From Sphingorhabdus wooponensis (GTDB taxonomy: Bacteria; Pseudomonadota; Alphaproteobacteria; Sphingomonadales; Sphingomonadaceae): a stretch of 64,000 nucleotides of DNA. The notes beneath the pieces were generated by a model, which saw only the letters and a list, made by a program, of their open reading frames with translations, had not been told where the DNA came from and ran no database searches. Position 1 is the first letter of the stretch. The number at the start of each line of letters is the position of its first letter. The stretch spans positions 440,001 to 504,000 of the forward strand of contig NZ_RWJI01000001.1 of the NCBI RefSeq assembly GCF_003933235.1, given 5' to 3'. The position numbers and the translations under genes are program-made. Below are positions 32,647 to 62,335 of this stretch, piece after piece.

Positions 32647-32820
32647 GAAAAAATTCCTTCTTCAACAGCTCAGGCGCGGTGCCATGGAAACATTACATAT
32701 TTACGGCAGCAGAAACGCTAACTGTAACAGCATTGTTGCGTAAATGTTATTGTTGTTGTCGAACATATTGCAGCATCGGCTTTAAGGTCAGGTGAATCCA
32801 ACTTTGTGGTCTAAAGCCAA

Positions 32821-32848
32821 AAGGTGAATTTATGTGGTCCTGACCCTA
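32821..32848. repeat. Solo terminal repeat of the MITE family
   Basis: The 28 bases AAGGTG...TGACCCTA match the left terminal repeat of the element at 34628-34894 (as reverse complement) in 26 of 28 positions. A possible eroded opposite end, TAAGGTCAGG with AATCCAACTT, lies at 32783-32803. This is therefore either a single end or an internally deleted copy. It lies 34 bases before the start of the PaaI-like thioesterase. The rest of the 32647-32881 gap has no visible gene. Confidence 0.7.
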
Positions 32849-33394: not shown

Positions 33395-34630
33395 ATGTCG
33401 CTACGTTATGTAAGAGAATTTAAGGGCTTTGCAGGCATCAGGCTGGAGGCCGACGATATCGGGTCCGCCGATGATCCGTCCATTGTCCTGCTGCATGGTT
33501 TTGGCCAGACTCGCAAAGTGTGGGAAGATGTCGCCATTGGTTTGGAACAAGCCGGACGCCATGTTATCAATGTCGATCTGCGCGGTCATGGCGGCAGCGA
33601 ATGGCCGTCCGATGGTCGGTATGATTTTACCGCTTATGTCGAAGATTTGCGCGCCGTTCTGGGCCAAATGCGCACACGCCCTGTGGTTGTTGCGGCATCC
33701 CACAGCGCATGGATTGCGACCATGGCCTTGGCTGAAGATGCCGCGACCTTGGCATCGGGCCTGATTTTCGTCGATCCGCCCGCGGACCATGATGCACAGG
33801 CGGTGCGTGCAGAGGCAGACCGTATGTCAGCCGCGCTTGGGCAAGGCTTAAACCACGCCGATTATGACAATGCGATATTTGCGGCTTTCGACACACATGG
33901 CGCGGGCGACGCGCTGTCGGAGGCTGCGGCGCATATTGGCCTGCCGTCGTTGATTATTCGTGGTGCCTTAGGCCAAGTTGACCCGGATGCGGCACAGCCC
34001 GCATTTGTGGACAGCCTTCCCAATGTAGAGGCGATTGACGTCGATGGCGGCGGTTTGTTGATCGTGGCCGAACGGGCAGAGGCATTTAACGGTGTGCTCA
34101 TTGACTTTTTGGAACGCAAGCAACCGCGCTTCATTCCGGAATATCGTTCCGGATCCGACGCGCGGACATTGCGGGATGCGATGGGCTGTTTTGCGACCGG
34201 TGTCACCATCATCACCGCGCATGCACCTGATGGACGGCCTGTTGGCTTAACCGCCAATAGCTTTACCAGCGTGTCGCTCGACCCGCCATTATTGCTGGTG
34301 TGCATCGCCAATGCTTCCGGCAGCGCAGAGGTTTTGCGCGGCATTGACGATTTTGCCGTCAATGTTCTGCAAATCGGGCAGCAGCCTGTCTCCAATCTGT
34401 TCGCTGGCAAAAGCGAGGATCGCTTTGCCGGAACGCGTTGGGAAGTGGGCGAATATGGCGCACCGATTTTGCCGAGCTCACTTGGCATATTTGAATGTAA
34501 GCGCCATGCATTGCATGAGGCGGGTGACCATTTCATCTTGGTCGGTCGCGTGGAAAAAGCGAGCTTTGAACCGCGCCGTGACCCATTGCTCTACTTCCGC
34601 GGCAAATACCGCCGCTTGCACTTTACTTAG
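33395..34630 (+). CDS. Fusion of a degenerate alpha/beta-hydrolase and a flavin reductase domain
   Basis: A 411-residue two-domain protein. Residues 1-240 are an alpha/beta-hydrolase with oxyanion loop LLHGFGQT (32-39), DLRGHGGSEWP (61-71) and Ser104 in ASHSAW, where both elbow glycines are replaced. The expected catalytic His before the ERAEAFN segment is Leu221, and no His occurs between residues 190 and 250, so the domain may not be catalytic. Residues 255-411 are a flavin reductase (DIM6/NTAB-type) with AMGCFATGVTIIT and GLTANSFTSVSLDPPLLLVCIA. Start is ATG 33395; TTG 33380 is possible. Its TAG stop is created by the MITE inserted at 34628. Confidence 0.88.
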   Translation: MSLRYVREFKGFAGIRLEADDIGSADDPSIVLLHGFGQTRKVWEDVAIGLEQAGRHVINVDLRGHGGSEWPSDGRYDFTAYVEDLRAVLGQMRTRPVVVAASHSAWIATMALAEDAATLASGLIFVDPPADHDAQAVRAEADRMSAALGQGLNHADYDNAIFAAFDTHGAGDALSEAAAHIGLPSLIIRGALGQVDPDAAQPAFVDSLPNVEAIDVDGGGLLIVAERAEAFNGVLIDFLERKQPRFIPEYRSGSDARTLRDAMGCFATGVTIITAHAPDGRPVGLTANSFTSVSLDPPLLLVCIANASGSAEVLRGIDDFAVNVLQIGQQPVSNLFAGKSEDRFAGTRWEVGEYGAPILPSSLGIFECKRHALHEAGDHFILVGRVEKASFEPRRDPLLYFRGKYRRLHFT

Positions 34631-34894
34631 GGTCAGGACCACTTAAATCCACCTTCACGGTTTGAGGCCATTTTGTTCAGTGCAAGACGGTAAGCGCAGG
34701 GCTTAGTGGTTCTAAGTCCAAGCTTGCCAACGTGGCAATGGACAATATGGGTCAAATCCGAAGGACGCCAAAATGGCTACGATCTCGAAACAAAATGCCC
34801 TTGCAGGCAAAATAACAGCCTGCGGCGGACATTTTACCTCGATATCTTTGCCATTTTGACGCCGCGAAGGTGTATTTAAGTGGCCCTGACCCTA
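34628..34894. mobile_element. MITE-like element with 29-bp terminal inverted repeats
   Basis: A 267-base non-coding element. Its ends, TAGGGTCAGGACCACTTAAA... at 34628-34656 and the matching reverse complement at 34866-34894, agree in 27 of 29 positions. A TA dinucleotide at each outer edge fits a TA target duplication, as with IS630/Tc1-mariner-type elements. The inside is rich in hairpins: TTGCCA-ACG-TGGCAA (34724-34738), GCAGGC/GCCTGC (about 34804-34822) and a 12/14 match between 34764-34777 and 34850-34863. It has no transposase, so a helper in trans is implied. It interrupts the stop codons of both convergent flanking genes. Confidence 0.85.
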
Positions 34895-35236
34895 AGGCAT
34901 TTTCATGTCAATGTCGTCGCGGCGGAACAGGTGCAGGAAATCGCCTTTAACGTCGGGAAAGGGCGGCTTATGTGACACTTTGCTGCGCCGCAGTGCCCAA
35001 TTAGCCCAATCCGCATATTCGGGATGATGCCGCGCAAGACGGGCATAACGCTTCTTTGCCCATAAGGAGTTTTTGAGAATCAGCGCCAGTCCGATGGGTA
35101 AAAGGATCAGCGGGCCTGGTCCAGGAACCGGACCAAGCAAAGGTGCGCCTAACAATATCAACCAACCCAATATCAGCATACACCAACGAAAGGCGTTGGA
35201 TTTGCTCCAGGATTTTGCGACAGTTTTTGTCATCAT
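34892..35236 (-). CDS. Small putative membrane protein with PGPGP motif
   Basis: A 114-residue protein, not matched to a defined function. An N-terminal basic segment (KTVAKSWSKSNAFRW) is followed by a hydrophobic hairpin of two transmembrane stretches separated by a Pro/Gly turn (GAPLLGPVPGPGPLILLPIGLALILK). A charged cytoplasmic tail (KKRYARLARHHPEYADWANWALRR) follows. This looks like the PGPGW group of small membrane proteins. ATG 35236 or 35233 is the likely start; the frame is open to 35269 but less plausible. Its TAG stop lies at the right end of the MITE; before insertion the stop would have been TAA. Confidence 0.7.
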   Translation of the reverse strand: MMTKTVAKSWSKSNAFRWCMLILGWLILLGAPLLGPVPGPGPLILLPIGLALILKNSLWAKKRYARLARHHPEYADWANWALRRSKVSHKPPFPDVKGDFLHLFRRDDIDMKMP

Positions 35237-35370
35237 CGATAATGTGGGGCAGGGTGGGCCGTCCCGCAAGTGACGCGATTATCGATTGAGCGCGTTTATA
35301 ACACAATAGATTCATTTTTTTGACGTAAATGGACTGTAATTTCCAGAATCAGCATTATGTTGGAATAATC

Positions 35371-35769
35371 GTGACCAAAGCACTATCCCACTTTCATCCT
35401 ATCGGCGTACTGCCGTCTGACATCGACTTCATGGGGCATGTGAACAATGCGCGCTACCTGAACTGGGTGCAAGAGGCGGTCTTGGCGCATTGGAACAAGC
35501 TTGCCCCGCCAGAGGCGGCTGCGAAATATCTGTGGGTCGCGCTCAAGCATGAGATTACCTACCGCAAACCAGCATTTTTGAATGACGAGGTGATTGCATC
35601 GGTGGTGCTTGAAAAGGTGCTGGGCGCGCGTTCATTTTACGAAACGGTGATCAAGCGTGGCGAGGATGTTCTTGCCGAGGTCAAGTCGAGCTGGTGCTGC
35701 ATTGACGCAAAAACGTTACGGCCTGCAAGGATTGCGGCCGATGTGCAGGCATATTTTTTCCCGAAATAA
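35371..35769 (+). CDS. Acyl-CoA thioesterase, 4HBT/FatB-like hotdog fold
   Basis: A 132-residue hotdog protein with the catalytic-loop motif VLPSDIDFMGHVNNARYLNWVQEA near the N-terminus, the Asp/Asn pattern of 4HBT thioesterases, and ITYRKPAFLNDEV in the second strand. GTG 35371 has GGA six bases upstream and gives a normal N-terminus. ATG 35329 would add 14 residues that look unlike the family. It is unpaired with neighbours: a small membrane protein gene lies divergently upstream and cysH converges downstream. Cytoplasmic hydrolysis of acyl-CoA is likely; substrate unknown. Confidence 0.85.
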   Translation: MTKALSHFHPIGVLPSDIDFMGHVNNARYLNWVQEAVLAHWNKLAPPEAAAKYLWVALKHEITYRKPAFLNDEVIASVVLEKVLGARSFYETVIKRGEDVLAEVKSSWCCIDAKTLRPARIAADVQAYFFPK

Positions 35770-35790
35770 TCTTGCCCGAAACGGCGAGGA

Positions 35791-36561
35791 TTAGAAAATA
35801 GGGTCGTCCGCGCCATCGCCAATTGGCGTCACGGCATTGTGTATCCCACATTCCACCTTGTCCCAGCCCTTCCAACGGCCCGAGCGCGGGTCTTCGCCCG
35901 GCGCGACTTTGGTGGTGCAGGGGGAGCAGCCGATGGATGGATAACCAAGCTGTACCAAGGGATGCGCGGGCAAGCTGTGTTCGGCCATATAAGCGTCGAT
36001 CTTGGTTTGGTCCCAATCGGCGAGCGGGTTGACCTTCAAACGGCCATTTTTAACCTCAAAACGGGGCAGGGCGCGGCGTGTGGACGATTGAAACGCCTTA
36101 CGTCCGGTAAACTGCGCATCAAAACCGGCCAATGCGGCATTCAGCGGCAGAACTTTGCGGATGTCACAGCAGCCATCGGGGTCATAAGACCAACGTAGGC
36201 CCGTTGCATCCTTTTGTTGGAGCAAAATAGGGTCGGGCGTCAGGATGCGTAAATCCAACAAACCGAGCTTCGACCGGAGCGCTTCCCGATAATCTATCGT
36301 CTCGGGAAAATGCTTGCCTGTGTCTAAGAACAAGACAGGTAATGTCGGATCAATGCTTGCAATGAGGTGGAGTAATACCGCGCTTTCAGCGCCGAAGCTG
36401 GAGACCACAGCGGCATCGCCCAACATATTTTCGCGCAACAAGATAGTCAGCATCTCGACCGTATCACGGCCCCGGAACATGTTATTCAGGCGCACTGCGT
36501 CGCCGTCTGTATATCGCGGGGCGGTGTTGATACGATCAGCGATGCGGACCATATTATCCAT
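35791..36561 (-). CDS. cysH: Phosphoadenylyl/adenylyl-sulfate reductase
   Basis: A 256-residue CysH that reduces activated sulfate to sulfite with thioredoxin or glutaredoxin. The ATP-pyrophosphatase-like fold includes VVSSFGAESAVLLHLIA, an SFGxESxVLL loop that binds the sulfonucleotide. The pairs DGCCDIRK and GCSPC supply four Cys for a [4Fe-4S] cluster, so this is the APS-reductase-like type. The catalytic Cys is in VECGIH near the C-terminus. ATG 36561 overlaps the DUF934 gene by eight bases; longer readings cut deeper into that gene. Last gene of the cobA-DUF2849-cysI-DUF934-cysH operon. Confidence 0.95.
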   Translation of the reverse strand: MDNMVRIADRINTAPRYTDGDAVRLNNMFRGRDTVEMLTILLRENMLGDAAVVSSFGAESAVLLHLIASIDPTLPVLFLDTGKHFPETIDYREALRSKLGLLDLRILTPDPILLQQKDATGLRWSYDPDGCCDIRKVLPLNAALAGFDAQFTGRKAFQSSTRRALPRFEVKNGRLKVNPLADWDQTKIDAYMAEHSLPAHPLVQLGYPSIGCSPCTTKVAPGEDPRSGRWKGWDKVECGIHNAVTPIGDGADDPIF

Positions 36562-36976
36562 GCCGTAGCTTCCAAATAGGTACAACGCTATCGGCGGCCC
36601 CTTGATAGGCATGGTCATAATTCGCGAGCGCACGGGCGACCGCCTCGGGGTTTAACGAGGCTTCGGGTGCGAAGCTGTCAAAGCCGCAGCGGCGCATATA
36701 TGCAATCTGGTCAACCAAAACGTCACCTTGCGCACGCAATTCGCCTTGATACCCAGCCTCCCGCAATATGCGGGCGGCGCTATAGCCCCGTCCATCGCGA
36801 AATTTGGGGAAGGCCACCTCGATCAACGTTAACCGGTCGAGAAAAGGAATTAAGGCCCGTGCATCATCATCCGGTTCCAACCTAACAGCGGTGGCATTGG
36901 ATTGGTCCAGAAACGCATCCAGCGTGACCGACGGTTGTTCCGTCACTTCATCGGTGCGGTAACGAAACTCAACCAT
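36554..36976 (-). CDS. DUF934 protein of the sulfate-reduction operon
   Basis: A 140-residue DUF934 protein with the family segments DDDARALIPFLDRLTLIEVAFPKFRDGRGYSAARILREAGY and LRAQGDVLVDQIAYMRRCGFDSF. DUF934 genes are constantly found between cysI and cysH in proteobacteria, but no activity is assigned. They may be assembly or electron-transfer helpers of sulfite reductase. ATG 36976 overlaps the end of cysI by eight bases, and the 3' end overlaps cysH by eight. The frame stays open upstream into cysI but the extension is not conserved. Confidence 0.92.
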   Translation of the reverse strand: MVEFRYRTDEVTEQPSVTLDAFLDQSNATAVRLEPDDDARALIPFLDRLTLIEVAFPKFRDGRGYSAARILREAGYQGELRAQGDVLVDQIAYMRRCGFDSFAPEASLNPEAVARALANYDHAYQGAADSVVPIWKLRHG

Positions 36977-38597
36977 AAATCGCCTCCTTAAAGGGTTCGA
37001 GGCCGACACGGCGATAGGTGTCGACGAAGCGTTCATCACCCTGCCGCAGTGCCTTATAGACCTCGGTCGCCTTTTCCACCGCATCGACAACGCCGTCTTC
37101 GTCAAAGCCGGGGCCAATGATTTTCCCGATGCTGACGTCTTCAGCGCCAGAGCCACCAAAGGTCAGCTGGTAATTTTCCACGCCTTTTTTATCGACGCCC
37201 AATATGCCGATATGTCCGGCATGATGATGGCCGCAGGCGTTGATGCAGCCTGAAATTTTAAGCTTCAGCTCGCCTAGATCACGCTGCCGGTCCATGTCGG
37301 CAAAACGTGTCGCAATTTTCTGCGCGACGGGGATCGAACGGGCATTGGCAAGGCTGCAATAATCAAGGCCAGGGCAGGCTATGATATCGCTAATCAGGTC
37401 AAGATTGGCATCGGCCAATTCGGCATCGCGCAAGGCCTGCCACACGGCATAAAGGTCGCGCTTTGCGACATAAGGCAACACGATATTCTGCGCATGGGTG
37501 ACGCGCAATTCGTCAAAGCTGTATTTTTCCGCGAGGTCAGCCATGATGTCAATTTGCTTTGATGTCGCATCGCCAGGGATACCGCCAATAGGCTTCAAAC
37601 TGATGTTGACGATCGCGTAACCCGCTTGCTTGTGCGGCTTCACATTTTGGTCAAGCCATAGGGCAAAATCGAGATCATTGCGGTCCGGTTCTACATTTGC
37701 GGCATCATAAGCTGGCGGCGCAAAAAAGGCGCTGATGCGTTCCAGTTCAGCCAAAGGCGGATCAATGCCCAAGGTTTTCACATGCGCGAATTCCTCGGCC
37801 ACTTGACGGCGGTATTCGTCCGCGCCGATTTCATGAATCAGGATCTTGATCCGCGCCTTGTACATATTGTCCCGCCGCCCGTAGCGGTTGTATACACGCA
37901 GGCAGGCCTCAAGATAACTCAACAGATCGTCTGCCTTGACGAACGGGTTGATCTCGGGCGCGATCATGGGCGTGCGGCCCATGCCGCCACCGACAAAGAC
38001 GCGCGCGCCCAGTTCGCCATCTTGGCGGACAAGTTCCAGTCCGATGTCGTGCAAGCGCATCGCAGCTCGGTCTTCCGATGACGCAATCACCGCGATTTTG
38101 AACTTGCGGGGCAGATAGCTGAATTCCGGATGGAAGGTTGACCATTGGCGCAGCAATTCCGCCCAAGGACGCGGGTCGGTGACTTCGTCGGCCGCAGCGC
38201 CCGCATATTGATCGGACGAAATGTTGCGGATGCAGTTGCCGCTTGTCTGAATGGCATGCATCTCAACGGTGGCCAGTTCTTCTAATATGTCGGCACAATC
38301 CTCCAGCTTGATCCAGTTATACTGAATATTCTGGCGCGTGGTGAAATGGCCGTAATCGCGGTCATATTTGCGCGCGATATGCGCGAGCATGCGCATTTGC
38401 CGTGAATCGAGCGTGCCATAAGGAATGGCAACGCGCAGCATATAGGCATGCAATTGGAGATAGAGGCCGTTCATCAACCGCAAGGGTTTGAACTGGTCTT
38501 CCGTCATTTCACCTGCAATGCGGCGATTTATTTGGTCACGAAATTCGGCGACGCGCGCGTCCACCATAGCTTGGTCATAATTGTCATATTTATACAT
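36969..38597 (-). CDS. cysI: Assimilatory nitrite/sulfite reductase hemoprotein
   Basis: A 542-residue siroheme-[4Fe-4S] enzyme that reduces sulfite to sulfide. The two repeated ferredoxin-like domains include LRMLAHIARKYDRDYGHFTTRQNIQYNW and the substrate-binding TSGNCIRNISSD. The cluster ligands lie in CPGLDYCSLANA and SGCINACGHHH. No cysJ flavoprotein is present, so reduced ferredoxin or another donor probably feeds it. It starts MYKYDNYDQ at ATG 38597, right behind DUF2849. Part of a five-gene operon. Confidence 0.95.
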   Translation of the reverse strand: MYKYDNYDQAMVDARVAEFRDQINRRIAGEMTEDQFKPLRLMNGLYLQLHAYMLRVAIPYGTLDSRQMRMLAHIARKYDRDYGHFTTRQNIQYNWIKLEDCADILEELATVEMHAIQTSGNCIRNISSDQYAGAAADEVTDPRPWAELLRQWSTFHPEFSYLPRKFKIAVIASSEDRAAMRLHDIGLELVRQDGELGARVFVGGGMGRTPMIAPEINPFVKADDLLSYLEACLRVYNRYGRRDNMYKARIKILIHEIGADEYRRQVAEEFAHVKTLGIDPPLAELERISAFFAPPAYDAANVEPDRNDLDFALWLDQNVKPHKQAGYAIVNISLKPIGGIPGDATSKQIDIMADLAEKYSFDELRVTHAQNIVLPYVAKRDLYAVWQALRDAELADANLDLISDIIACPGLDYCSLANARSIPVAQKIATRFADMDRQRDLGELKLKISGCINACGHHHAGHIGILGVDKKGVENYQLTFGGSGAEDVSIGKIIGPGFDEDGVVDAVEKATEVYKALRQGDERFVDTYRRVGLEPFKEAIYG

Positions 38598-38598
38598 G

Positions 38599-38895
38599 TC
38601 AGATTATCCAATCACCAGCCGCAGGATCGGCAGGCTTGAGTGTGAGGTCCGTGCGGACGGTTGGTCCCAGCGCGCGAATGCGGTCCTTGATATGCGCTGG
38701 GCGCGGGCCATTTTCGGTTGGCAGCGCATCAATGATATAAGGCGCGTTGACGCGGCGTGCGCCTTCTTCGGCGTGGAGTATCGCCTCGCCCTGTTCGCCA
38801 ACATCGGCGGCATCTTCGACATGGATGGACCAGCCATTGCCCGTCCACCATGTGACAGCGCCAGACACCAAATCATTTCCCGTCAGTAATTTCAC
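38599..38895 (-). CDS. DUF2849 protein
   Basis: A 98-residue small protein of DUF2849, with MKLLTGNDLVSGAVTWW at the N-terminus and ALGPTVRTDLTLKPAD at the C-terminus. It sits between cobA and cysI, the position it takes in many alphaproteobacteria, and its ATG overlaps the cobA stop (ATGA). The family has no proven function. Constant linkage suggests a role in siroheme or sulfite-reductase supply. No catalytic motif is visible. Confidence 0.88.
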   Translation of the reverse strand: MKLLTGNDLVSGAVTWWTGNGWSIHVEDAADVGEQGEAILHAEEGARRVNAPYIIDALPTENGPRPAHIKDRIRALGPTVRTDLTLKPADPAAGDWII

Positions 38896-39659
38896 GCAAT
38901 TTTCTCCGCCTGTTTGGCAAAATGGTACAAACGATCTTCGGCATCAGATTTCAGGACGACATCGCCGACAATGATGATGGCGGGCGACATCACGCCTTCG
39001 CGCGCGATCATGTCGCCTAGGTCGGTTAAAATAGTACGCATCGCGCGGGCATTGGGCCGTGTCGCGCGCTCCAGCACAGCGACGGGCGTGTCGGGCGACA
39101 GGCCATCGCTAATAAGCTTTTCGGTAATGTCCGCCGCTGTTGCGATACCCATGTAAATGACCAAAGTGCGGCCTTTACCCGCAAGGCCCGCCCAATTCTG
39201 GTCTGTCAGGCCCTTGCATTGGCCAGCGACGAAAGTCACCGCGCTGGCGGCATCACGGTGGGTCAGCGGTAACATTGTCGCAGCTGCCCCGCCCATCGCG
39301 GCAGATATGCCGGGAACAACCTCCACATCAATGCCCGCATCGTGGCAGGCCTCGGCCTCTTCACCGCCACGTCCGAAAATAAACGGGTCGCCGCCTTTTA
39401 ACCGCACGACCTTATGACCGGCCTGCGCCTCACGGACGAGAATATCGTTGATGCCGTTCTGCGGCACCGAATGGCGTGAACGGCTTTTGGCGACAGAAAT
39501 CAGCCGTGCGGCGGGATTGATGAGCGCCATTATCGCGTCATCCACTAGGCCGTCATGCACCACAACGTCCGCGGACGAAATCAACCGTACCGCTTTCACG
39601 GTCAGCAATTCGGGGTCACCGGGGCCAGCGCCCACCAAATATACGCGTGCTTGTTCCAT
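38892..39659 (-). CDS. cobA: Uroporphyrinogen-III C-methyltransferase
   Basis: A 255-residue SUMT that adds two methyl groups to uroporphyrinogen III, the first step towards siroheme for CysI. Signatures include VYLVGAGPGDPELLTVKA (SAM-binding start), VRLKGGDPFIFGRGGEEAEA and VVPGISAAMGG, with a TxR-like region late in the protein. It is a stand-alone methyltransferase without the dehydrogenase/ferrochelatase part of CysG. First gene of the operon, starting at ATG 39659. The upstream 87 bp to selO hold no visible gene. Confidence 0.96.
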   Translation of the reverse strand: MEQARVYLVGAGPGDPELLTVKAVRLISSADVVVHDGLVDDAIMALINPAARLISVAKSRSRHSVPQNGINDILVREAQAGHKVVRLKGGDPFIFGRGGEEAEACHDAGIDVEVVPGISAAMGGAAATMLPLTHRDAASAVTFVAGQCKGLTDQNWAGLAGKGRTLVIYMGIATAADITEKLISDGLSPDTPVAVLERATRPNARAMRTILTDLGDMIAREGVMSPAIIIVGDVVLKSDAEDRLYHFAKQAEKIA

Positions 39660-39746
39660 CCTGCTGTAATGGGCAATTGTGCCGCCAGCATCAAATCAGG
39701 ATAAGTTGGCCAAGGCTTAGAAGAACTTTAGCGTCTCATTGTGCCG

Positions 39747-41138
39747 TTACAAATTCGGCGTCATATGGGCTTGCCCCATTTCGCGAATAGCATGGATTTT
39801 GCTCTGTATCGGTTCCCAGTCATCCTTTTCGGATATGGCCTGCCAGATATCTTCGACCTCATGGATCAACATCGAACAGATCGCGCCTTTCGACCAATAG
39901 GCGTGCCGGTTCCCCTCCACAGGCGCGTAATCGCGCAACAAAGCGGCAAAAGCGGATTCATATTCGCCGGTGGCGTCGCCTGCGTTCGCATTACAATGAC
40001 GATAAAGGTAGAAGAATTGATCGATGGCGATTTTCTCCCGCGCCATTGTGCGTTCTGCAGCCTCGACCAGTTGCCGGTCCAATGCCTCTCCGCGTGACGC
40101 CACGCCCAAGCGCCACAGAAAGCGCCGTATGACGGCCTGTTGATACAGGGCCGGAAAACGCTCCAGCGCGGCAATCAATGGCGGCGCGTCAGACACTAGA
40201 CGCAGCGCCACCGCCAACTGCCCCAAGTTCCAATGCAGCGCCTCGGCCTGTCTGCCAAAGGCGTAAAGGCCAGACTCGTCAAAATAAGCTGCGGTGAATT
40301 GCGGGTCCCAATATTCGGTGAAGCGCCAAGGCCCATAATCGAAACTCTCACCGGTGATATTGATATTGTCGGTGTTAAGCACGCCATGGACAAAGCCCGC
40401 GACCATATAGGATGCGGCAAGGTCAGCGACCCGTTCCACCGCCAGTCCAAGCAATTGTGCCGCAGGATTTTCCGTTAGGGCAACATCGTAAAGTTGCGTC
40501 AGGCAATAAGCGATGAGCTGTTGCATGAATTCGGTATCGCCCTCGGCAGCGACGCGCTGAAAACTGCCAATGCGGATATGGCTATGGCTCAACCGGACCA
40601 TCACCGCCGATCGTGTGGGGGAGGGTTCATCGCCGCGTATCAATTCTTCGCCGGTTTCAATGATGGAAAATGTTTTGGAGGTGTTGACGCCCAAAGCCTC
40701 CAGCATTTCCGTGGCCAATATTTCGCGCACCCCACCTTTAAGCGTCAGGCGGCCATCGCCACGGCGGCTGTAGGGGGTGGTTCCCGACCCCTTGGTCGCG
40801 AGGTCAAGCAAGCGGCCGTCGCCATCGCGCATTTGCGCAAACAGGAAACCGCGACCATCGCCAATGTCGGGATTATACACGCGAAACTGGTGGCCATGAT
40901 AACGCAAAGCCAGTGGTTCGGGCATATTGTCGGGCAATGGATCAAAGCGGCCAAAGTGGCGGACCCAGGCGGTGTCATCATAGTCCGCTAGCCCGACTGT
41001 TGCCGCCCAACGATCATTACGAAAGCGCAAGATTGTTTTCGGAAAATGCGCAGGTCGCACGGCGTCACCCATTTTTGCGCCAAGACTGGCGATTTGTGGA
41101 TCAGGGCGGTAGAGGGAAGCGAAAGGTTTCATAATCAT
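39747..41138 (-). CDS. selO: Protein adenylyltransferase SelO (YdiU family)
   Basis: A 463-residue pseudokinase-fold enzyme. SelO transfers AMP to protein Ser/Thr/Tyr residues, linked to redox regulation in E. coli and mitochondria. Visible motifs include KGSGTTPYSRRGDGRLTLKGGVRE (nucleotide and phosphate binding), MEALGV-like EMLEALGVNTSK, and the metal-binding NTDNINITGESFDYGPW. A C-terminal selenocysteine or Cys disulfide motif known from some members is not visible. It lies alone on the minus strand, upstream of cobA and divergent from the glycosyltransferase gene. Confidence 0.94.
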   Translation of the reverse strand: MIMKPFASLYRPDPQIASLGAKMGDAVRPAHFPKTILRFRNDRWAATVGLADYDDTAWVRHFGRFDPLPDNMPEPLALRYHGHQFRVYNPDIGDGRGFLFAQMRDGDGRLLDLATKGSGTTPYSRRGDGRLTLKGGVREILATEMLEALGVNTSKTFSIIETGEELIRGDEPSPTRSAVMVRLSHSHIRIGSFQRVAAEGDTEFMQQLIAYCLTQLYDVALTENPAAQLLGLAVERVADLAASYMVAGFVHGVLNTDNINITGESFDYGPWRFTEYWDPQFTAAYFDESGLYAFGRQAEALHWNLGQLAVALRLVSDAPPLIAALERFPALYQQAVIRRFLWRLGVASRGEALDRQLVEAAERTMAREKIAIDQFFYLYRHCNANAGDATGEYESAFAALLRDYAPVEGNRHAYWSKGAICSMLIHEVEDIWQAISEKDDWEPIQSKIHAIREMGQAHMTPNL

Positions 41139-41175
41139 CTAACGCATCTGGGCGGTGCATAAGGGAAAGGCAAGT

Positions 41176-42324
41176 ATGGCGGCGGTTCGCATCCTACATT
41201 TGCATAGCAGCTTTGATTTAGGTGACGCGCAATTACGCACAGTTCGCTTGATGAATCATTTTGGCAATCAAGCCGAACATACGCTTTTGTCTGCGGTTCA
41301 TGACGCCTTTGGCGCGGCGGACGCCTTAGACCGGCGCGTCAAAATGAGCTTCCCCAAAGACGCAGCGCCCGCGCTCGGCGGCACGCCGAACATGGCCCGC
41401 TATCGCCGTTTGGCCGCATATATGAAGAAATTTCACCTCGTGCTGAGTTACAATTTCGGCGCGATGGATGGGGTTATGGCGCATACCTTGTTCACGCGCG
41501 GCATGAAATTGCCGCCATTGATCCATCATGAAGACGGGTTTGAGCAGGATGAAGTGGATAGGCTGAAATGGCACCGCAATTGGTTCCGCACTATTGCGCT
41601 GCAACGGGCTGACGCCCTTGTTGTGCCATCCAAAACGCTTGAGCATATTGCGCGTACTTTCTGGCATCAGCCGCTGGAGAAAATCGCGCGCTTCCCCAAT
41701 GGTATTGATACCGAACATTATAACCGTCGTCCGCAGCGTGGGTCCTTCCCGGGTTTCCAAAAGCGTGACGGCGAAATTATCGTCGGTACGATTGCCGACT
41801 TGCGTAGCGTCAAGAATTTACCCCGTCTGCTGCGTGCGGTCGCAGCGGCGGACGCGAATATCCGGCTTGCCATTGTGGGTGAAGGGCCGGATCGTGATGT
41901 CATCATGGCAGAGGCAACACGGCTCGGTATCGCTGACCGCGTCATGATGCCTGGATATTTGCGTGATCCTGCCCGCTATATTCGGCTTTTCGACATTTTT
42001 GCGCTGTCGTCGGATAGCGAACAATATCCCATTTCACTGGTTGAAGCGATGACTAGCGCGCTGCCAATTGTGGCGACAGATGTGGGCGATGTCCGTAATA
42101 TCGTATCGCGTGAGAACAGGCCATTTATCGTTGCACGTGATGATGAGGACGCGCTGGCGTCGGCTATCAATAGCTTGGCAAAAGATGCGGCGCTTCGTGC
42201 AACATTGGCCACTGCGAACCGTATTTTGGCATGTTCTCAATATGATGAGGATACGATGTTCGCGCGCTATCGGCAGCTTTATGGTTCTGCCATGAAACGT
42301 GCCGATTTTGCGCGACAAAGCTGA
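41176..42324 (+). CDS. Glycosyltransferase family 4-like protein
   Basis: A 382-residue GT-B-fold glycosyltransferase. The N-terminal donor/acceptor domain begins VRILHLHSSFDLGDAQLRTVRLMNHFG. The C-terminal nucleotide-binding domain shows VGTIADLRSVKNLPRLLRA, IVGEGPDRD and the family signature SSDSEQYPISLVEAMTSALPIVATDVGD with the E-x7-E motif. It probably adds a sugar to a surface glycan or glycolipid. ATG 41176 has GGAAAGG six bases upstream; ATG 41155 is in frame but lacks a site. No polysaccharide gene cluster surrounds it. Substrate unknown. Confidence 0.92.
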   Translation: MAAVRILHLHSSFDLGDAQLRTVRLMNHFGNQAEHTLLSAVHDAFGAADALDRRVKMSFPKDAAPALGGTPNMARYRRLAAYMKKFHLVLSYNFGAMDGVMAHTLFTRGMKLPPLIHHEDGFEQDEVDRLKWHRNWFRTIALQRADALVVPSKTLEHIARTFWHQPLEKIARFPNGIDTEHYNRRPQRGSFPGFQKRDGEIIVGTIADLRSVKNLPRLLRAVAAADANIRLAIVGEGPDRDVIMAEATRLGIADRVMMPGYLRDPARYIRLFDIFALSSDSEQYPISLVEAMTSALPIVATDVGDVRNIVSRENRPFIVARDDEDALASAINSLAKDAALRATLATANRILACSQYDEDTMFARYRQLYGSAMKRADFARQS

Positions 42325-42398
42325 CCATTTGCGATAGCGCCGACCGTTAGAAGCGCGTTGCACAGTGCTTTAGACAAGAGTTTTTAGGGGTAATATTT

Positions 42399-43802
42399 GT
42401 GTTCAAGGGTCTGAAACCCATTATCTATGGTGGCCGCGAAGTATGGCCATTGGTCGAAGGCGGCAAGGGTGTTGCGGCAACCAATCATGCAAGTTCTGGC
42501 GCATGGGCTGCGGCCGGCGGCATCGGCACAGTCTCTGCCGTAAATGCCGACAGCTATGATGAAAATGGCGAGATGATTCCGCAAGTCTTCCTTGGTAAAA
42601 CGCGTGCCGAACGGCATGAGGAACTTGTCGAATATGGCATTCGCGGCGGCATCGCGCAGGTGAAGCTTGCGCATGAAATGTCCAATGGACGTGGCGCTAT
42701 TAACATCAACGTGTTGTGGGAAATGGGCGGTGCACAGCGCATCTTGCACGGCATATTGGAAGCAACCAAGGGCATGGTGACAGGCGTTACCTGCGGCGCG
42801 GGTATGCCATACAAGCTATCCGAAATCGCGGCGCAATATGGCGTCTATTATCTACCGATTGTAAGCTCCGCCCGTGCCTTCCGCGCGTTGTGGAAGCGTG
42901 CCTATCACAAGGTGCCGGAATGGTTGGGTGCGGTTGTCTATGAAGACCCGTGGTTGGCCGGCGGTCACAATGGCCTGTCCAATGCCGAAGACCCGCGCAG
43001 CCCCGAAGATCCCTATCCGCGCGTGAAGGCCCTGCGCGATGTCATGCGCGTTGAAGGTATTTCGGATGATGTGCCGATTGTCATGGCCGGCGGTGTTTGG
43101 TTCTTGCGCGACTGGAACGACTGGATTGATAACCCCGAACTGGGGCAGATTGCATTTCAATTGGGCACACGCCCATTGTTGACGCAGGAAAGCCCCATTC
43201 CAGCGGGCTGGAAAGACGCGCTTACGAAAATTCCAGAAGACGGCGTATTATTGCATCAATTTTCGCCCACGGGTTTTTACTCCAGCGCGGTCATCAATCC
43301 GTTCCTGTTGGAGCTTCAGTCGCGTTCGGAACGTCAAATTCCTTATGTGCAGGCCGCCGACGCGGAACACACAGCGCAACTGGATGTAGGCGTGAAGGGT
43401 AAGAATTTCTGGGTTACCCAAGCTGACCTGATGAAGGCACGCGAATGGGATGCGCGCGGATTTACCGTTGCGCTAAAAACGCCTGACAACACGCTTGTGT
43501 TCGTGACGCCATCCTCCGGCGAAGTTATCCGGAAGGATCAAAAGGACTGCATGGGCTGCTTATCGCATTGCGGTTTTTCGTCGTGGAAGGACCATGACAA
43601 TAACTCCACTGGCCGTCTTGCCGACCCGCGCAGCTTTTGCATTCAAAAGGCGCTGCAGAACATCGCACATGGCGCGCCGATTGATGAAAATCTGATGTTT
43701 GCCGGACACAGCGCCTATCTGTTCGGAAAAGATCCGTTTTATTCTAACGGCTTTGTCCCGACGGTGCAGCAATTGATGGATCGTCTGCTGACGGGCGATT
43801 GA
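42399..43802 (+). CDS. Nitronate-monooxygenase-like flavin oxidoreductase with Cys-rich C-terminus
   Basis: A 467-residue TIM-barrel FMN enzyme of the 2-nitropropane dioxygenase family. KPIIYGGREVWPLVEGGKGVAATNHASSG opens the barrel, GGIAQVKLAHEMSNGRGAININVLWEMGG is the second strand region, and VPIVMAGGVWFLRDW contains the FMN phosphate loop. The C-terminal 100 residues have DCMGCLSHCGFSSW and SFCIQK, a Cys-rich addition not needed by the basic enzyme. GTG 42399 with AGGGG eight bases upstream is the start. Unidentified substrate; the paralogue type is longer than standard nitronate monooxygenase. Confidence 0.88.
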   Translation: MFKGLKPIIYGGREVWPLVEGGKGVAATNHASSGAWAAAGGIGTVSAVNADSYDENGEMIPQVFLGKTRAERHEELVEYGIRGGIAQVKLAHEMSNGRGAININVLWEMGGAQRILHGILEATKGMVTGVTCGAGMPYKLSEIAAQYGVYYLPIVSSARAFRALWKRAYHKVPEWLGAVVYEDPWLAGGHNGLSNAEDPRSPEDPYPRVKALRDVMRVEGISDDVPIVMAGGVWFLRDWNDWIDNPELGQIAFQLGTRPLLTQESPIPAGWKDALTKIPEDGVLLHQFSPTGFYSSAVINPFLLELQSRSERQIPYVQAADAEHTAQLDVGVKGKNFWVTQADLMKAREWDARGFTVALKTPDNTLVFVTPSSGEVIRKDQKDCMGCLSHCGFSSWKDHDNNSTGRLADPRSFCIQKALQNIAHGAPIDENLMFAGHSAYLFGKDPFYSNGFVPTVQQLMDRLLTGD

Positions 43803-43831
43803 CGCCATTTCGCATGTGCCGGATATTGACT

Positions 43832-43863
43832 CTCGAGCCGTAATTTCTGCGGCCGAGGTTTTT
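43832..43863 (+). terminator. Terminator of the nitronate-monooxygenase-like gene
   Basis: CTCGAGCCG (43832-43840) pairs with CGGCCGAG (43850-43857) with one bulged A, followed by GTTTTT. It lies 30 bases past the stop codon and before the convergent dehydrogenase gene. Confidence 0.5.
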
Positions 43864-43914
43864 ATTCTGTTTGATTATGCCTCAGTTATCGAAGGTTGTG
43901 CAACACAGGCCGCA

Positions 43915-44913
43915 TTATTGCCAACCTTCCAAAACTTGATCTGGCGGTCTGTGGCCGTCTGCCCACATACGGATGTTGGTAATCACGCGCGCGCCTGATG
44001 CTTCTCGCCCTTCAAAGGTCGCGCTACCCAAATGGGGCAGCAACACGACATTGGGGATGTTGAATAGCCGTGAGTCCACCGCAGGCTCATGCGTATATAC
44101 GTCGAGCCCAGCGCCGGCGATGCGACCGTTTTCCAAGGCGTCAATTAACGCGTCCTCGTCAATCAACTCTCCGCGCGAACTGTTGATGATATAGGCATCC
44201 GCTTTCATCTGCGCGATGCGGTTGGCGTTGATGATTTTATCGGTTTCTGCCGTTAACGGGCAATGCAGGCTGATAATGTCCGACCGCGCCACGAGCCGAT
44301 CAATGTCTGGTTCAAAGACGATGCCCAATTCATCCTCGACACTTGCGGGCAAGCGGTCGCGCTTGTTGTAAATGATGTTGAGACCAAAGGCTTTGGCACG
44401 CACGGCCACAGCTTCCCCAATCCGGCCAAGGCCGATGATACCCAAAGTCTTCCCACCAATACGGTGACCCAGCATACCCGTCGGGCTCCAGCCGCGCCAT
44501 TCGCCGTTGCGCATGACACGCTGCCCCTCACCCAGACGGCGGGGGACGTTGAGGATAAGCGCCATAGTCAGGTCTGCGGTATCGTCCGTGAAAACCCCTG
44601 GCGTGTTGGTGACCATAATGCCCTTTGCCTTTGCGGCGGCCAGATCGATATGGTTAACCCCTGCGCCATAGCTGGCGATGAGCTTAAGCCGGGGCGGGGC
44701 GGCAGCGATGATATCTGCATCAATGCTGTCTGTGACCGTTGGCACCAGCACGTCGCAATCAGCCATGGCAGCGACCAAGGCGTCACGGCTTAATGGGCTA
44801 TCATCGGTATTGAAGCGGGCGTCGAACAACTCCGCCATGCGTTTTTCAACCGCTGGCAGTAAACTGCGTGTCACGCGGATGGATGGACGTTCGATGCGGC
44901 TAAGTTCTGGCAT
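43915..44913 (-). CDS. D-2-hydroxyacid dehydrogenase
   Basis: A 332-residue NAD(P)-dependent dehydrogenase of the glyoxylate/hydroxypyruvate reductase group. The NAD-binding loop reads LGIIGLGRIGEAVAVRA (about residues 158-174). The catalytic Arg-Glu-His set is visible as NSSRGELIDEDAL (Arg), GLDVYTHEP (Glu) and LLPHLGSAT (His). The N-terminal substrate domain has ASYGAGVNHIDL. It probably reduces glyoxylate or hydroxypyruvate. It stands alone between convergent and divergent neighbours. Confidence 0.94.
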   Translation of the reverse strand: MPELSRIERPSIRVTRSLLPAVEKRMAELFDARFNTDDSPLSRDALVAAMADCDVLVPTVTDSIDADIIAAAPPRLKLIASYGAGVNHIDLAAAKAKGIMVTNTPGVFTDDTADLTMALILNVPRRLGEGQRVMRNGEWRGWSPTGMLGHRIGGKTLGIIGLGRIGEAVAVRAKAFGLNIIYNKRDRLPASVEDELGIVFEPDIDRLVARSDIISLHCPLTAETDKIINANRIAQMKADAYIINSSRGELIDEDALIDALENGRIAGAGLDVYTHEPAVDSRLFNIPNVVLLPHLGSATFEGREASGARVITNIRMWADGHRPPDQVLEGWQ

Positions 44914-44987
44914 AGACTGACTAAAGCGGAATTCGCGATAAGGTCAAGACAGGATGGTTGCGCTCGCCGCAACGCTTGCCGTATAAG

Positions 44988-45494
44988 ATGAAAACGATGG
45001 TAAATAATATGGCTATTCAGAATAAATCGATCGTGCGTTATGGCGCAGTGGCGCTCGCGCTTTTGGGGGCCGCGTCTGCCGTTGGACAAGCGCAGCGCCA
45101 GCCGCCTTATTGGGCATCTATTCAGAAGCCTGAAGCCCGCATGCGCACAGGACCCAGCACAGAATTCCCCGTTACATGGGTTTACAAAAGACAAAATTTG
45201 CCGGTGAAGGTTGTCGCGGTCCACAGCGTCTGGCGTAAGGTTCAAGACCCTGATGGCGACCAAGGCTGGCTGCACGTGCGGTTGCTTAGCCCTAAGCAAA
45301 CCGCAATCGTCATTGGTAAAGACATTGGCGCGTTGCGGGACTCGCCGCAAGCGAACGCGCATATTTCATGGCGCGTTGAACCCGGTGTTGTTGGCGTTAT
45401 CGATGAATGCGAAAAGGGATATTGCCGTTTTGAAACCAATGGGCGGTACGGCTATATCGAAAGGTCCCGTATCTGGGGCGATGAGGCGCTGTAA
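44988..45494 (+). CDS. Exported SH3-domain protein
   Basis: A 168-residue secreted or periplasmic protein. After a short charged N-terminus, a hydrophobic segment (YGAVALALLGAASAVGQAQ) acts as a signal peptide with a likely cleavage after AQA. Two bacterial SH3-like units follow: ARMRTGPSTEFPVTWVYKRQNLPVKVV...GWLHVRLLS and ALRDSPQANAHISWRVEPGVVGVI...GYIERSRIW. Such domains bind cell-wall peptides or proteins. Start is uncertain: ATG 44988 is used, ATG 44997 and 45009 are in frame, and none has a clear Shine-Dalgarno site. It converges on atpC. Confidence 0.8.
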   Translation: MKTMVNNMAIQNKSIVRYGAVALALLGAASAVGQAQRQPPYWASIQKPEARMRTGPSTEFPVTWVYKRQNLPVKVVAVHSVWRKVQDPDGDQGWLHVRLLSPKQTAIVIGKDIGALRDSPQANAHISWRVEPGVVGVIDECEKGYCRFETNGRYGYIERSRIWGDEAL

Positions 45495-45512
45495 ATACGC
45501 GCCACAAACGCG

Positions 45513-45528
45513 CGAAGCTTAAGCTTCG
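45513..45528. repeat. 16-bp perfect palindrome overlapping the atpC stop codon
   Basis: CGAAGCTTAAGCTTCG spans the TAA of atpC and the gap to the convergent SH3 gene. It could slow or end transcription of the atp operon, but has no T tract. Confidence 0.4.
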
Positions 45529-45779
45529 ACGCGTTCTGCCAGCACCGTTAGGCCGCTTGCGTTCACTTCAGCAAAACCACCTGCGATCATCAGGCGCTCC
45601 GGCGTTGCGCCTTGCGTTTTGTAAATCTCCAGCGCCGCATCGTTGCGTAGCGTGCTCATCATTGGGCTGTGGCCCTCTAACACGCCGAAATCGCCCTCAG
45701 TGCCCGGAACGACGACCATATAGACGTCGTCCGAGCGATAGAGCTTCTCAGGTGTTACCAGTTCGAAGTGGAGCGCCAT
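45519..45779 (-). CDS. atpC: ATP synthase F1 epsilon subunit, short form
   Basis: An 86-residue epsilon subunit consisting of the N-terminal beta-sandwich only: [44 protein letters not shown]. The usual C-terminal helical hairpin of about 50 residues, which inhibits ATP hydrolysis in E. coli, is absent. This length is common in alphaproteobacteria, where a separate zeta protein may supply inhibition. Starts six bases after atpD. Confidence 0.95.
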
Positions 45780-45785
45780 AATGGC

Positions 45786-47366
<1,581 letters not shown>

Positions 47367-48248
47367 TTAGAGCGCTTCGGCGCCCGCAATAATTTCGATA
47401 AGTTCAGTGGTAATCGCCGCTTGGCGCGTGCGGTTATATTGAATGGTCAGCTTGTTGATCATGTCACCCGCGTTGCGCGTTGCATTGTCCATAGCTGTCA
47501 TTTTTGAACCTTGCTCCGATGCCGCATTTTCACGGTTCGCGCGCAGCAACTGAACAGCTACATTGCGTGGCAGTAATTCAGCGAGAATTTCTTCCTCGTC
47601 GGGTTCATATTCCACCGTGGCGGACAGGCCAGCCGCGTCGCCTTCACCAGCGGTTACCGCGACGGGCATCAATTGAATCTGCGTTGGTTCTTGCGTTAGC
47701 ACGGTCACAAATTTGCTGAAGAACAGATGTGCGACGTCAAATTCGCCAGCTTCAAAACGCGCAGTCAGATCTTCGCCCCATGCTTGCACATCGGCAAAGC
47801 TGAGCTTGCCCAGATCGCCGGGTTCAATGCTGTGGATGATATCGCCACGGAAAGTCCGGCTGAGCTGATCGCGGCCTTTTTTCCCGATGGTGTAAAATTT
47901 GACGGTCTTGCCTTCGGCCTTCAACGCCTCTGCCTGACGGCGGGCGAGACGGACGATGTTGGTGTTGAATGCGCCGGCAAGGCCCTTGTCGCTGGTAGCG
48001 ACAACGAACAAATGCACGTCATTCTTGCCTGAGCCTGCAAGCAGCTTTGGCGATTGTGGACCAACAGATACCTTCGACGCGATGCTTGACACCACTGCCT
48101 CAAGCCGTTCGGCATAAGGACGCGATGCTTCGGCCGCTTCGGTTGCCCGACGCAGCTTCGCAGCGGCGACCATTTTCATCGCCTTGGTGATCTTCTGGGT
48201 CGATTTGACCGAGTTGATCCGTATTTTGAGGGCCTTAAGAGACGCCAT
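47367..48248 (-). CDS. atpG: ATP synthase F1 gamma subunit
   Basis: A 293-residue rotor shaft. The conserved N-terminal helix MASLKALKIRINSVKSTQKITKAMKMVAAAKLRRA and the C-terminal helix MTAMDNATRNAGDMINKLTIQYNRTRQAAITTELIEIIAGAEAL form the coiled-coil that turns in the alpha3beta3 ring. The central domain shows VATSDKGLAGAFNTNI. It follows atpA after an 84-base gap that contains a large hairpin repeat. Confidence 0.97.
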   Translation of the reverse strand: MASLKALKIRINSVKSTQKITKAMKMVAAAKLRRATEAAEASRPYAERLEAVVSSIASKVSVGPQSPKLLAGSGKNDVHLFVVATSDKGLAGAFNTNIVRLARRQAEALKAEGKTVKFYTIGKKGRDQLSRTFRGDIIHSIEPGDLGKLSFADVQAWGEDLTARFEAGEFDVAHLFFSKFVTVLTQEPTQIQLMPVAVTAGEGDAAGLSATVEYEPDEEEILAELLPRNVAVQLLRANRENAASEQGSKMTAMDNATRNAGDMINKLTIQYNRTRQAAITTELIEIIAGAEAL

Positions 48249-48271
48249 CTATTCTTCCCTTTGCCGTCACT

Positions 48272-48317
48272 CTGAACGTGTTTCAGAGACTTTATTAAGA
48301 TGCTGAAACACGTTCAG
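48272..48317. repeat. Hairpin repeat inside the atp operon (atpA-atpG gap)
   Basis: CTGAACGTGTTTCAG (48272-48286) and CTGAAACACGTTCAG (48303-48317) are a perfect 15-bp inverted repeat with a 16-base loop. It lies in the atpA-atpG gap on the operon transcript and belongs to the same family as the repeat at 50580-50640. Confidence 0.75.
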
Positions 48318-48332
48318 CATGACGGGTGATTG

Positions 48333-50437
<2,105 letters not shown>

Positions 50438-50515
50438 GCGTCGAATTCCTAAAATGTGAGACTGAAAAAACTTGCCGAGCGCACTGAAGGGTTACCCCTT
50501 GCTGGCGTCGCGCCG

Positions 50516-50544
50516 CGCCTAGCAGGGGTTTTGTTGCGATGCAA
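50516..50544 (-). promoter_or_regulatory. Probable atpHAGDC promoter
   Basis: Minus-strand -35 TTGCAT (50544-50539), 17-bp spacer, -10 TAGGCG (50521-50516), about 80 bases before atpH. The stretch AACCCCTGCTAG resembles the putative rplJ promoter at 12048-12075. Confidence 0.4.
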
Positions 50545-50579
50545 GATGGCGATTGTTGCTTGTTTCAACCCAATCGTTA

Positions 50580-50640
50580 TCCTGAACTTGTTTCGAGAGA
50601 ACAAACCGCGTTAGGGCGTTTTCCTGAAACAAGTTCAGGA
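50580..50640. repeat. Hairpin repeat upstream of atpH
   Basis: TCCTGAACTTGTTTC (50580-50594) and GAAACAAGTTCAGGA (50626-50640) form a perfect 15-bp inverted repeat with a 31-base loop. The core TGAAC-TGTTTC is shared with the repeat at 48272-48317. It lies between the divergent atpH and dienelactone hydrolase genes. Confidence 0.7.
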
Positions 50641-50659
50641 TGGCAATGGAGAGCGCGCA

Positions 50660-51337
50660 ATGGGCAAAATGATTCGCATGACAATGTCGGATGGCGCAGA
50701 AATCGCCGTCTATCATGCCGAAGCCGAGGGGGCACGGCGCGGCGGCCTCGTTTTGGTACAGGAAATATTTGGCGTGACCGACCATATCCGCGAATTGTGC
50801 GACGAATATGCTGCCGATGGTTATGAAGTATTGTCACCCGCCATTTTTGACCGTGAGCATCCGGGATTTGAGGCGGATTATACGGGTCCCGACTATAATC
50901 GTGCCGTGGAGCTGGCGCGCGAACTGCACCCGTTTGTACAGTCGCTCGATGATGCAATGGTCTGCATCAATGCGCTGAAGGATAAGGGGAAGGTGTTTAT
51001 CACAGGCTATTGCTATGGCGGCTCTGTCGCTTGGGCCGCTGCGGGGATTAGCGATGATCTCGCCGCCGCCAGTTGTTATTATGGTAGTCTCGTTCCGACA
51101 GTCTATGCTGACAACCCCCCCAAATGCGCGACGATTGCCCATTTCGGACGCTATGACGCGGGCATACCGATGGAGGGCGTTGAAGCCCTCATTGAAAAAG
51201 CCCATCCGACCGCGCAGATATTCGTTTATGATGCCAATCACGGGTTCAATTCCGACCGGCGCAAGGATTATCATGAAGCCAGCGCCGATTTGGCGCGGGA
51301 ACGGACACTTGCCCTGTTTCAAGCCTGCGGTGGATGA
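50660..51337 (+). CDS. Dienelactone hydrolase family protein
   Basis: A 225-residue alpha/beta-hydrolase. The Cys nucleophile (Cys118 in GYCYGGSV) replaces the usual Ser, the hallmark of dienelactone hydrolases. Asp in GRYDAGIP and His in YDANHGFN complete the triad. The N-terminal IEAYHAEAEG-type strand and EIFGVTDHIRELCDEYAADGY are family-typical. Characterised members open the lactone ring of dienelactone in chloroaromatic degradation, but many homologues act on other esters. ATGA overlap with the following ogt gene. Confidence 0.92.
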   Translation: MGKMIRMTMSDGAEIAVYHAEAEGARRGGLVLVQEIFGVTDHIRELCDEYAADGYEVLSPAIFDREHPGFEADYTGPDYNRAVELARELHPFVQSLDDAMVCINALKDKGKVFITGYCYGGSVAWAAAGISDDLAAASCYYGSLVPTVYADNPPKCATIAHFGRYDAGIPMEGVEALIEKAHPTAQIFVYDANHGFNSDRRKDYHEASADLARERTLALFQACGG

Positions 51338-51885
51338 ATGCGGCTATGACACCAAGCGCTTGGATTAACGGTGGCGCAGGCGTGTCCATATATTGGGCAG
51401 TGGCTGAAACTGTGCTTGGCGCGATGTTGCTGGCCGCGACCGATAAGGGAATTTGCCGCCTGTCGTTTGACGAAAATGAAAGCGTCCTAACGCGCCGCTT
51501 TCCGAATGCGACCCTGCTGAGTAAGGGCGGTTCGCTCTCGGCGCTCATCGACGGTGCGGTCTTCGCCATTCAAAACCCAAAGCAGATGCCCCAATTGCCC
51601 TTGGATGTCGGCGGCACTGATTTCCAAATGGCCGTGTGGCAAGCGTTGCAGCAAATACCGGCGGGCGAAACGCGCAATTATGCCGAAATCGCCGTGGCGG
51701 TTGGAAAGCCTGATGCAGTGCGCGCGGCGGGCACGGCCAATGGTGCAAACCCTGTCTCGGTGCTTATTCCCTGCCACCGTGTTATCCGGTCCGATGGCGG
51801 CCTTGGCGGCTATGCTTATGGGTTGGATCGCAAGCGCCGTCTGTTGGCGTGGGAAAGCGGGCAGGGCGGTTTGTTTTCAGCTTAG
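51334..51885 (+). CDS. ogt: Methylated-DNA--protein-cysteine methyltransferase
   Basis: A 183-residue DNA repair protein that removes the methyl group from O6-methylguanine by transfer to its own Cys. The active-site motif [18 protein letters not shown] has the acceptor Cys, and the helix-turn-helix arginine-finger region [28 protein letters not shown] precedes it. Single-domain Ogt type without the Ada N-terminal regulator. Coupled to the preceding hydrolase gene by ATGA. Its 3' end overlaps convergent truA by nine bases. Confidence 0.95.
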
Positions 51886-53543: not shown

Positions 53544-53585
53544 CGTCACTTTTCCTTTGTTCAAAAGCCCCCTAAGACCCAGCGC

Positions 53586-54182: not shown

Positions 54183-54213
54183 TTTATCCAAAAACCGTCC
54201 CTATCTGCGACCC

Positions 54214-54771: not shown

Positions 54772-54785
54772 TACGGTAAATTGAA

Positions 54786-54804
54786 ACCCCGCCCTAAGCG
54801 GGGT
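54786..54804. terminator. Terminator between def and the lipoprotein gene
   Basis: ACCCCGC pairs with GCGGGGT around a short loop, 15 bases past def, followed by GTCGTTATTTT on the plus strand. On the minus strand it follows the lipoprotein stop within 25 bases, so it may serve both genes. Confidence 0.5.
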
Positions 54805-54808
54805 GTCG

Positions 54809-55969: not shown

Positions 55970-56002
55970 TTTGGGTTCCTTGGGAAGAAGCTGCACATTC
56001 CG

Positions 56003-57180: not shown

Positions 57181-57191
57181 GAACTCGCAAA

Positions 57192-59648: not shown

Positions 59649-59655
59649 GTTGCTA

Positions 59656-60819: not shown

Positions 60820-60856
60820 TTCTCTTAACCTATTTCGCTATGTCCGCGAAAGACGA

Positions 60857-61486: not shown

Positions 61487-61542
61487 AACTTTTGCCTCAA
61501 TTAAAAATCCGTCGCCCCAGCTTATACTGGAGCGATGGTTCC

Positions 61543-62256: not shown

Positions 62257-62335
62257 GATAATCTCCTGATAATAAGTTGCCGCCTGCCTTAGACTGCCCC
62301 GCTTGCTTTGCAAGTGCGCGGTGCGCTACACTGCC

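Follow-up and report, generated by a model that had tools for sequence, protein, structure and literature searches.

A MITE lying between two convergent genes of the window (the whole 64,000-nucleotide stretch of Sphingorhabdus wooponensis DNA analysed here) is very probably one scar of a ~1.006-Mb inversion that took place between two MITEs, each seated in a stop codon. The inversion is deduced from gene order: in relatives the left-hand gene (F) is followed by an HPPD gene and the right-hand gene (M) by rpmH, while here HPPD and rpmH stand together around a second MITE in inverted orientation. The part of the window at 34893..64000 (no strand assigned) would belong to the inverted segment, C1:474,893 to 1,481,341, the extent of which beyond the compared arms follows from the two junctions.

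The core of the window element (GGGTCAGGACC...GGCCCTGACCC) is 263 bp long and occupies positions 34630..34892, with no strand assigned; it forms one of the two inversion breakpoints. It is flanked by a TA on the left (34628..34629) and on the right (34893..34894), so that the element with both TAs spans 34628-34894. The terminal inverted repeats lie at 34630..34660 (plus strand) and 34862..34892 (minus strand), and 27 of 29 terminal bases are identical when the TA is counted in, the mismatches falling at offsets 10 and 21; the inverted ends and edge TAs described in the initial annotation are thus present as described. Gene F, an alpha/beta hydrolase-flavin reductase fusion of 416 aa with a TTG start, runs from 33380 to 34630 on the plus strand, and its TAG stop (34628-34630) consists of the left TA and the first G of the element. 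Gene M, which encodes 125 aa without a Pfam match, occupies 34892..35269 on the minus strand, and the right TA gives its TAG stop at 34894-34892. Both convergent genes therefore end on a TAG derived from the element, with their proteins unchanged, in agreement with the earlier description. No ORF of at least 80 aa is found inside the element. Its single-strand fold is very stable, with energies of -134.4 and -137.6 kcal/mol on the two strands (z -12.8 and -12.5). The suggestion that the hairpin body acts as a terminator found no support, since a scan for intrinsic terminators (a G+C-rich stem and then a run of T) returned 1 site against 1.1 expected. The sole match of an Rfam search of the window is a tRNA.

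The host genome (2,177,915 bp in 8 contigs) contains 11 full copies of the element at 85-100% identity, including the window copy (L001) and the partner copy (L010) at the other breakpoint. The TA is kept on both sides in nine of the 11, with L004 and L011 each having lost one. The end motif TAGGGTCAGRAYC, allowing at most 1 mismatch, occurs 40 times in the host genome compared with 3 times for a reversed control; together with the 11 full copies, this indicates that the window element is not a chance arrangement, and it supplies the further genomic copies that had been anticipated. The short, non-coding element with terminal inverted repeats, a TA duplication and dispersed copies is confirmed as a MITE. 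Matches were found in 18 of the 41 genomes searched, all of the same genus, and in 0 of the 16 from other genera. An exact TAGGGTCAGGACC is present in 33 of 45 same-genus genomes, with a single match of the reversed control in all of them (in G047).

Several further observations concern the spread and the internal structure of the family. In G052, whose genome is 3.0 Mb long, exact TAGGGTCAGGACC ends number 183, which suggests that the family has undergone a burst there. A plasmid of S. alaskensis shows a 69.6% match at a place without a listed gene; phages gave no match to the element, and viral contigs gave one MITE end, which breaks off into the apparent end of another IS. Within the window, a degenerate short relative of 66 bp lies at 32783..32848 (no strand assigned), upstream of a PaaI-like gene. 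The same site is occupied by 80-bp and 140-bp elements in G052 and G058, and in G052 a different gene block, which that genome has twice, is joined there via the 80-bp element. Ten loci scanned in the host genome (L200-L207, L209, L210) contain nine 15-bp TA-GGGTCAGGACC-TA units (at most 1 mismatch), six of them at the natural stop of an ORF of at least 90 aa. One such unit is absent from seven relatives, and a clean alignment with three of these reveals a 13-base insertion at a stop-codon TA; the units are regarded as footprints or deletion remnants of the MITE. The two arms of a copy also share changes: 97 same-base changes on both arms were counted in 55 unique full-size elements, against a mean of 34 and a maximum of 59 in 2000 shuffles in which subfamily relatedness was uncontrolled, and none of the 97 falls in the first 8 bases.

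Comparison with relatives shows a different gene order on both sides of the window element. In six of six relatives, at most ~35 bp separate F from the HPPD flank, that is, the left flank of L010, and M adjoins the rpmH flank to the right of L010, with an 80-bp element between them in G058. Over a wider set, in which 42 relatives have a match to M, the gene stands directly upstream of the rpmH region in all 29 loci examined. The sequence that follows F in one relative locus (L140) has one match in the host genome, C1:1479844-1481310, which contains the HPPD gene and ends ~30 bp from L010. M was not found near F in the 27 F loci from other genomes (L140-L166), some of which are short stretches. 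In G053, G007, G004 and G058, both breaks in synteny coincide with the MITE; G021 agrees on the M-rpmH side, and its sequence after F matched neither arm.

The reciprocal junction is found 1.007 Mb from the window MITE. There the HPPD gene (PF14696; C1:1480176-1481300) and the region of rpmH (PF00468) stand together, adjoining L010 (C1:1481341-1481609) on either side. L010 is in the opposite orientation to L001; both are full length and 87% identical. Inverted copies at both apparent breakpoints, reciprocal junctions and an apparently ancestral order in outgroups are thus all found, as would be expected of a repeat-mediated inversion. When the flanks are rejoined according to the order in relatives, they read ACTTAAACCGTC for F-HPPD and CCTTAACCCGTG for M-rpmH. 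Empty alleles that bear a TAA exist both after F (ACCTAACCCGT, in G007) and after M (CCCTAACCCGTG, in G051). Many relatives have TGA rather than TAA at the stop, and G051, the nearest relative by F, has TGA at F, so that the ancestral TAA at F is one we infer from the flanks. Traces of the family are found at the two sites in other species as well: a 13-base remnant of a MITE end lies at the F stop in G006, and the 80-bp element of G058 lies in the TA of the M stop. Among the relatives examined, none has both insertions at full length.

A side observation concerns M itself. Its protein is ~57-63% identical to those of most close relatives and 73-79% identical to those of G024, G054, G045 and G008, while the DNA around M is ~83-90% identical in four close relatives; judged from protein identity against that of the neighbouring DNA, the M allele may have been replaced.

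The initial annotation had explained the arrangement by a single insertion into a TTAA shared by the stop codons of two neighbouring genes, and the rejoined window flanks do read CTTAAG. To look for the empty site, 222 + 220 bp of joined flanks, with the element and one TA removed, were compared for all 11 copies against six relatives. For the nine other copies, 51 of 54 comparisons gave an unbroken alignment of the joined flanks, and in the remaining three the site is filled: L003 in G007 (gap of ~263 bp), L009 in G004 (~102 bp) and L011 in G003 (~202 bp). These nine copies behave as plain insertions. For the copies at F|M (L001) and HPPD|rpmH (L010), a one-piece alignment was obtained in 0 of 12 comparisons. 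The orthologous empty site CTTAAG that the annotation predicted was accordingly not seen, the joined F|M flanks aligning in none of the six relatives, and none aligns across the contiguous arrangement of F and M at ACTTAAGGC. Since F and M also have other downstream neighbours in all six, with M preceding the rpmH region at all 29 loci, a single insertion at this place is scarcely credible. What stands of the proposed history is the MITE, its TA duplication, the rebuilt TAG and the further copies; the shared TTAA site does not hold here.

The same type of event is found elsewhere in the chromosome, at L009 (C1:826292), which sits in GCGCTTTAACTGCG. A thioredoxin gene (123 aa) and argJ (407 aa) share one TTAA there, both with TAA stops, and the site is empty in five of six relatives and filled in the sixth; the shared-TTAA, convergent-stop insertion does hold at thioredoxin/argJ. 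L007 (C1:1506029-1506297) is a third copy with a boundary TAG for both convergent ORFs. Without the element, its right-hand ORF would have TAC at this position, and the insertion may have shortened that gene.

The proposed course of events is as follows. A TA-targeting transposase would have moved the MITE family, placing one copy in the stop-codon TA of F, ahead of the HPPD gene, and a second in that of M, ahead of rpmH, both stops presumably being TAA at the time. Homologous exchange within the element between these two copies, ~1 Mb apart and in inverted orientation, would then have flipped the chromosome between them, leaving F-MITE-M in the window and HPPD-MITE-rpmH at the other end; the order of these steps is likewise a reconstruction. 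No coding sequence would have been damaged, because the element ends rebuild TAG and the element does not extend into the regions upstream of HPPD and rpmH. L001 and L010 each have one left and one right end, which is what a crossover between inverted copies predicts. They differ at 35 aligned columns, and no crossover point or clear mosaic pattern is visible within either; they are 87% identical, and the longest stretch without a difference, 33 bp, is short by the standards of homologous recombination.

That low identity and those short runs, together with the very stable hairpin, are what would favour a variant of the same explanation, in which the inversion was produced by a transposase acting on the ends of two copies, or by breakage at the hairpin. 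We consider this route improbable but worth some weight: both products are full-length with one end of each kind, as a crossover gives, and a transposase with the MITE ends was not found in the sequences searched. Far less weight attaches to the idea of an earlier inversion, arising by some other route, whose new junctions each received a MITE afterwards. In its favour, the family moves and commonly occupies stop codons. It would, however, require two insertions exactly at the two breakpoints, and on either side the sequence right up to the element agrees with the neighbours seen in relatives, leaving no separate breakpoint; such a sequence of events is highly implausible.

An error in the assembly has also to be weighed, the true order then being F-MITE-HPPD and M-MITE-rpmH with the arms swapped at the two MITEs. 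The reciprocal exchange of arms at inverted repeats is a well-known type of assembly error, and the junction evidence comes from a single assembly in 8 contigs. We nevertheless regard an artefact as quite unlikely. Copies that differ at so many columns, with so few identical bases in a row, should offer too little to confuse the usual assemblers, and the nine other copies are ordered as in relatives. The position of the inversion adds a lesser argument, as tolerated inversions are commonly symmetric about the terminus. GC skew, calculated from 38 sampled 12-kb stretches together with the window, has mainly positive values between ~220 and 930 kb and mainly negative ones further on, and the cumulative skew, sampled more finely but with gaps from 820 kb onward, peaks near 928 kb. 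The midpoint of the inversion, at 978 kb, makes it roughly symmetric about the terminus; this is weak evidence, because five of the 18 inverted copy pairs on C1 would lie equally near, within 60 kb of the skew switch. An inversion between the two stop-codon MITEs remains the preferred reading.

The placement of both MITEs in stop codons reflects a wider tendency of the family. The 70 independent sites considered are clusters of 125 site records, with L001 and L010 included, and 62 of them have a YTAR target (CTAA 29, TTAA 22, CTAG 11), compared with 14.8% of background TAs. Outside ORFs, stop codons are hit at 26 of 56 sites against 85 of 980 background TAs (odds ratio 9.1), after exclusion of the 14 of 70 sites, and the 4636 of 5616 background TAs, classed as inside an ORF; both convergent stops are hit at 10 of the 26. 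Without merging of orthologues, and with nested ends counted separately, a natural stop lies at the boundary in 35 of 76 sites (290 of 5909 background TAs), and on both sides in 14 of 76 (6 of 5909). These counts are rough: they use ORF-length heuristics instead of gene calls, both skip loci L059-L138, L237, L268 and L269, and the loci came from ranked searches and chosen stretches, which do not form a random sample.

The insertion rebuilds the stop because every in-frame TAR is a stop codon and G is the first base of the element, TA + G giving TAG. A YTAR target combined with GGG ends thus means that insertion into a TAA or TAG stop restores TAG, and does so on both sides where convergent stops overlap. 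Target preference accounts for part of the excess of stop codons; within YTAR sites the proportion is 26 of 50, against 46 of 265 in the background. The rest may be due to the survival of harmless insertions. A more tentative possibility, which we would not favour at present, is that docking in stop codons is an adaptation of the family, its copies serving as genome-wide safe crossover points at which Sphingorhabdus chromosomes are reshuffled at gene 3' ends. If so, recombination between docked copies need not break genes, and the window would hold one such event caught.

In a partial sample, no transposase with the MITE ends (beginning GGGTCAGG) was found. Two pairs of ends 600-3500 bp apart were present in the loci scanned as candidates for an autonomous partner. 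One pair is L270 (G052:C12:204040-205479), the 1172-bp core of which occurs alone elsewhere in G052 with other ends; L270 is thus an unrelated IS inserted in a MITE. The other pair encloses an ORF judged by eye not to be a transposase. A second IS630-type IS in G052 was rejected as a source on account of its other ends, as was a transposase annotated as IS5 that lies next to a matching end on plasmid pMC4 and by eye has its own ends and a CTAG duplication. PF13358 was detected in two of ten chosen genomes, and the two IS types examined have other ends. As a separate observation, two different IS630-type ISs have apparently inserted at TAs inside or at the edge of family copies (L270 1541-2980; L237 6300-6418; L399 955-967). 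The TA duplication and YTAR target of the MITE fit the IS630/Tc1 group.

A 263-bp non-coding element can thus apparently invert about half of a bacterial chromosome without harm to coding sequence, and a YTAR target with a terminal GGG that rebuilds the stop offers a simple reason for this harmlessness. The nine other copies serve as internal controls for the inversion reading, and the case is a warning that what looks like a neat insertion between convergent genes can be the scar of a rearrangement. It also makes testable whether docking in stop codons is target preference, survival bias or adaptation.

At the level of titles and the beginnings of abstracts, no literature was found on this MITE family or on a general habit of docking in stop codons; each ingredient is known in kind, and the combination was not met in the parts of the literature consulted. 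BOX repeats are modular, and IS630 reportedly prefers CTAG (Tenzen and Ohtsubo 1991, by its title), which may be set beside the YTAR preference of the present family. The available text on RUP of Streptococcus pneumoniae describes a 107-bp element linked to IS630-Spn1 with a TA target (PMC2229807), which resembles the MITE in being short, with inverted ends and many intergenic copies, and pneumococcal repeats of this kind are over-represented between convergent genes (PMC3049150, from the part available). The MITE differs from RUP in its 263-bp core, its ends (GGGTCAGGACC), the lack of a matching transposase among our finds and its many insertions in the stop codon itself. According to the same portion of that study, BOX repeats of S. 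pneumoniae supply the stop codon of neighbouring genes in 36 of 58 overlapping CDSs (PMC3049150), as the MITE does; unlike BOX, the MITE has a TA target at which TAG is rebuilt by both of its ends. Members of the IS630/Tc1-mariner family (IS630, ISY100) duplicate a TA target in the sections available (PMC2170065), a feature shared by the MITE, for which no transposase with its ends was found and from which the two G052 IS630-type ISs are set apart by their ends. A review, as far as its available text goes, calls MITEs hotspots for homologous recombination and states that Correia elements can invert (PMC10969869), and the accessible part of a report on a 102-bp MITE of a Pseudomonas does not mention MITE inversion (PMC6053426). 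The window case resembles known repeat-mediated inversions in the reciprocal inversion between inverted repeats, and differs from them in that its repeats are 263 bp long, 87% identical and each docked in a stop codon.
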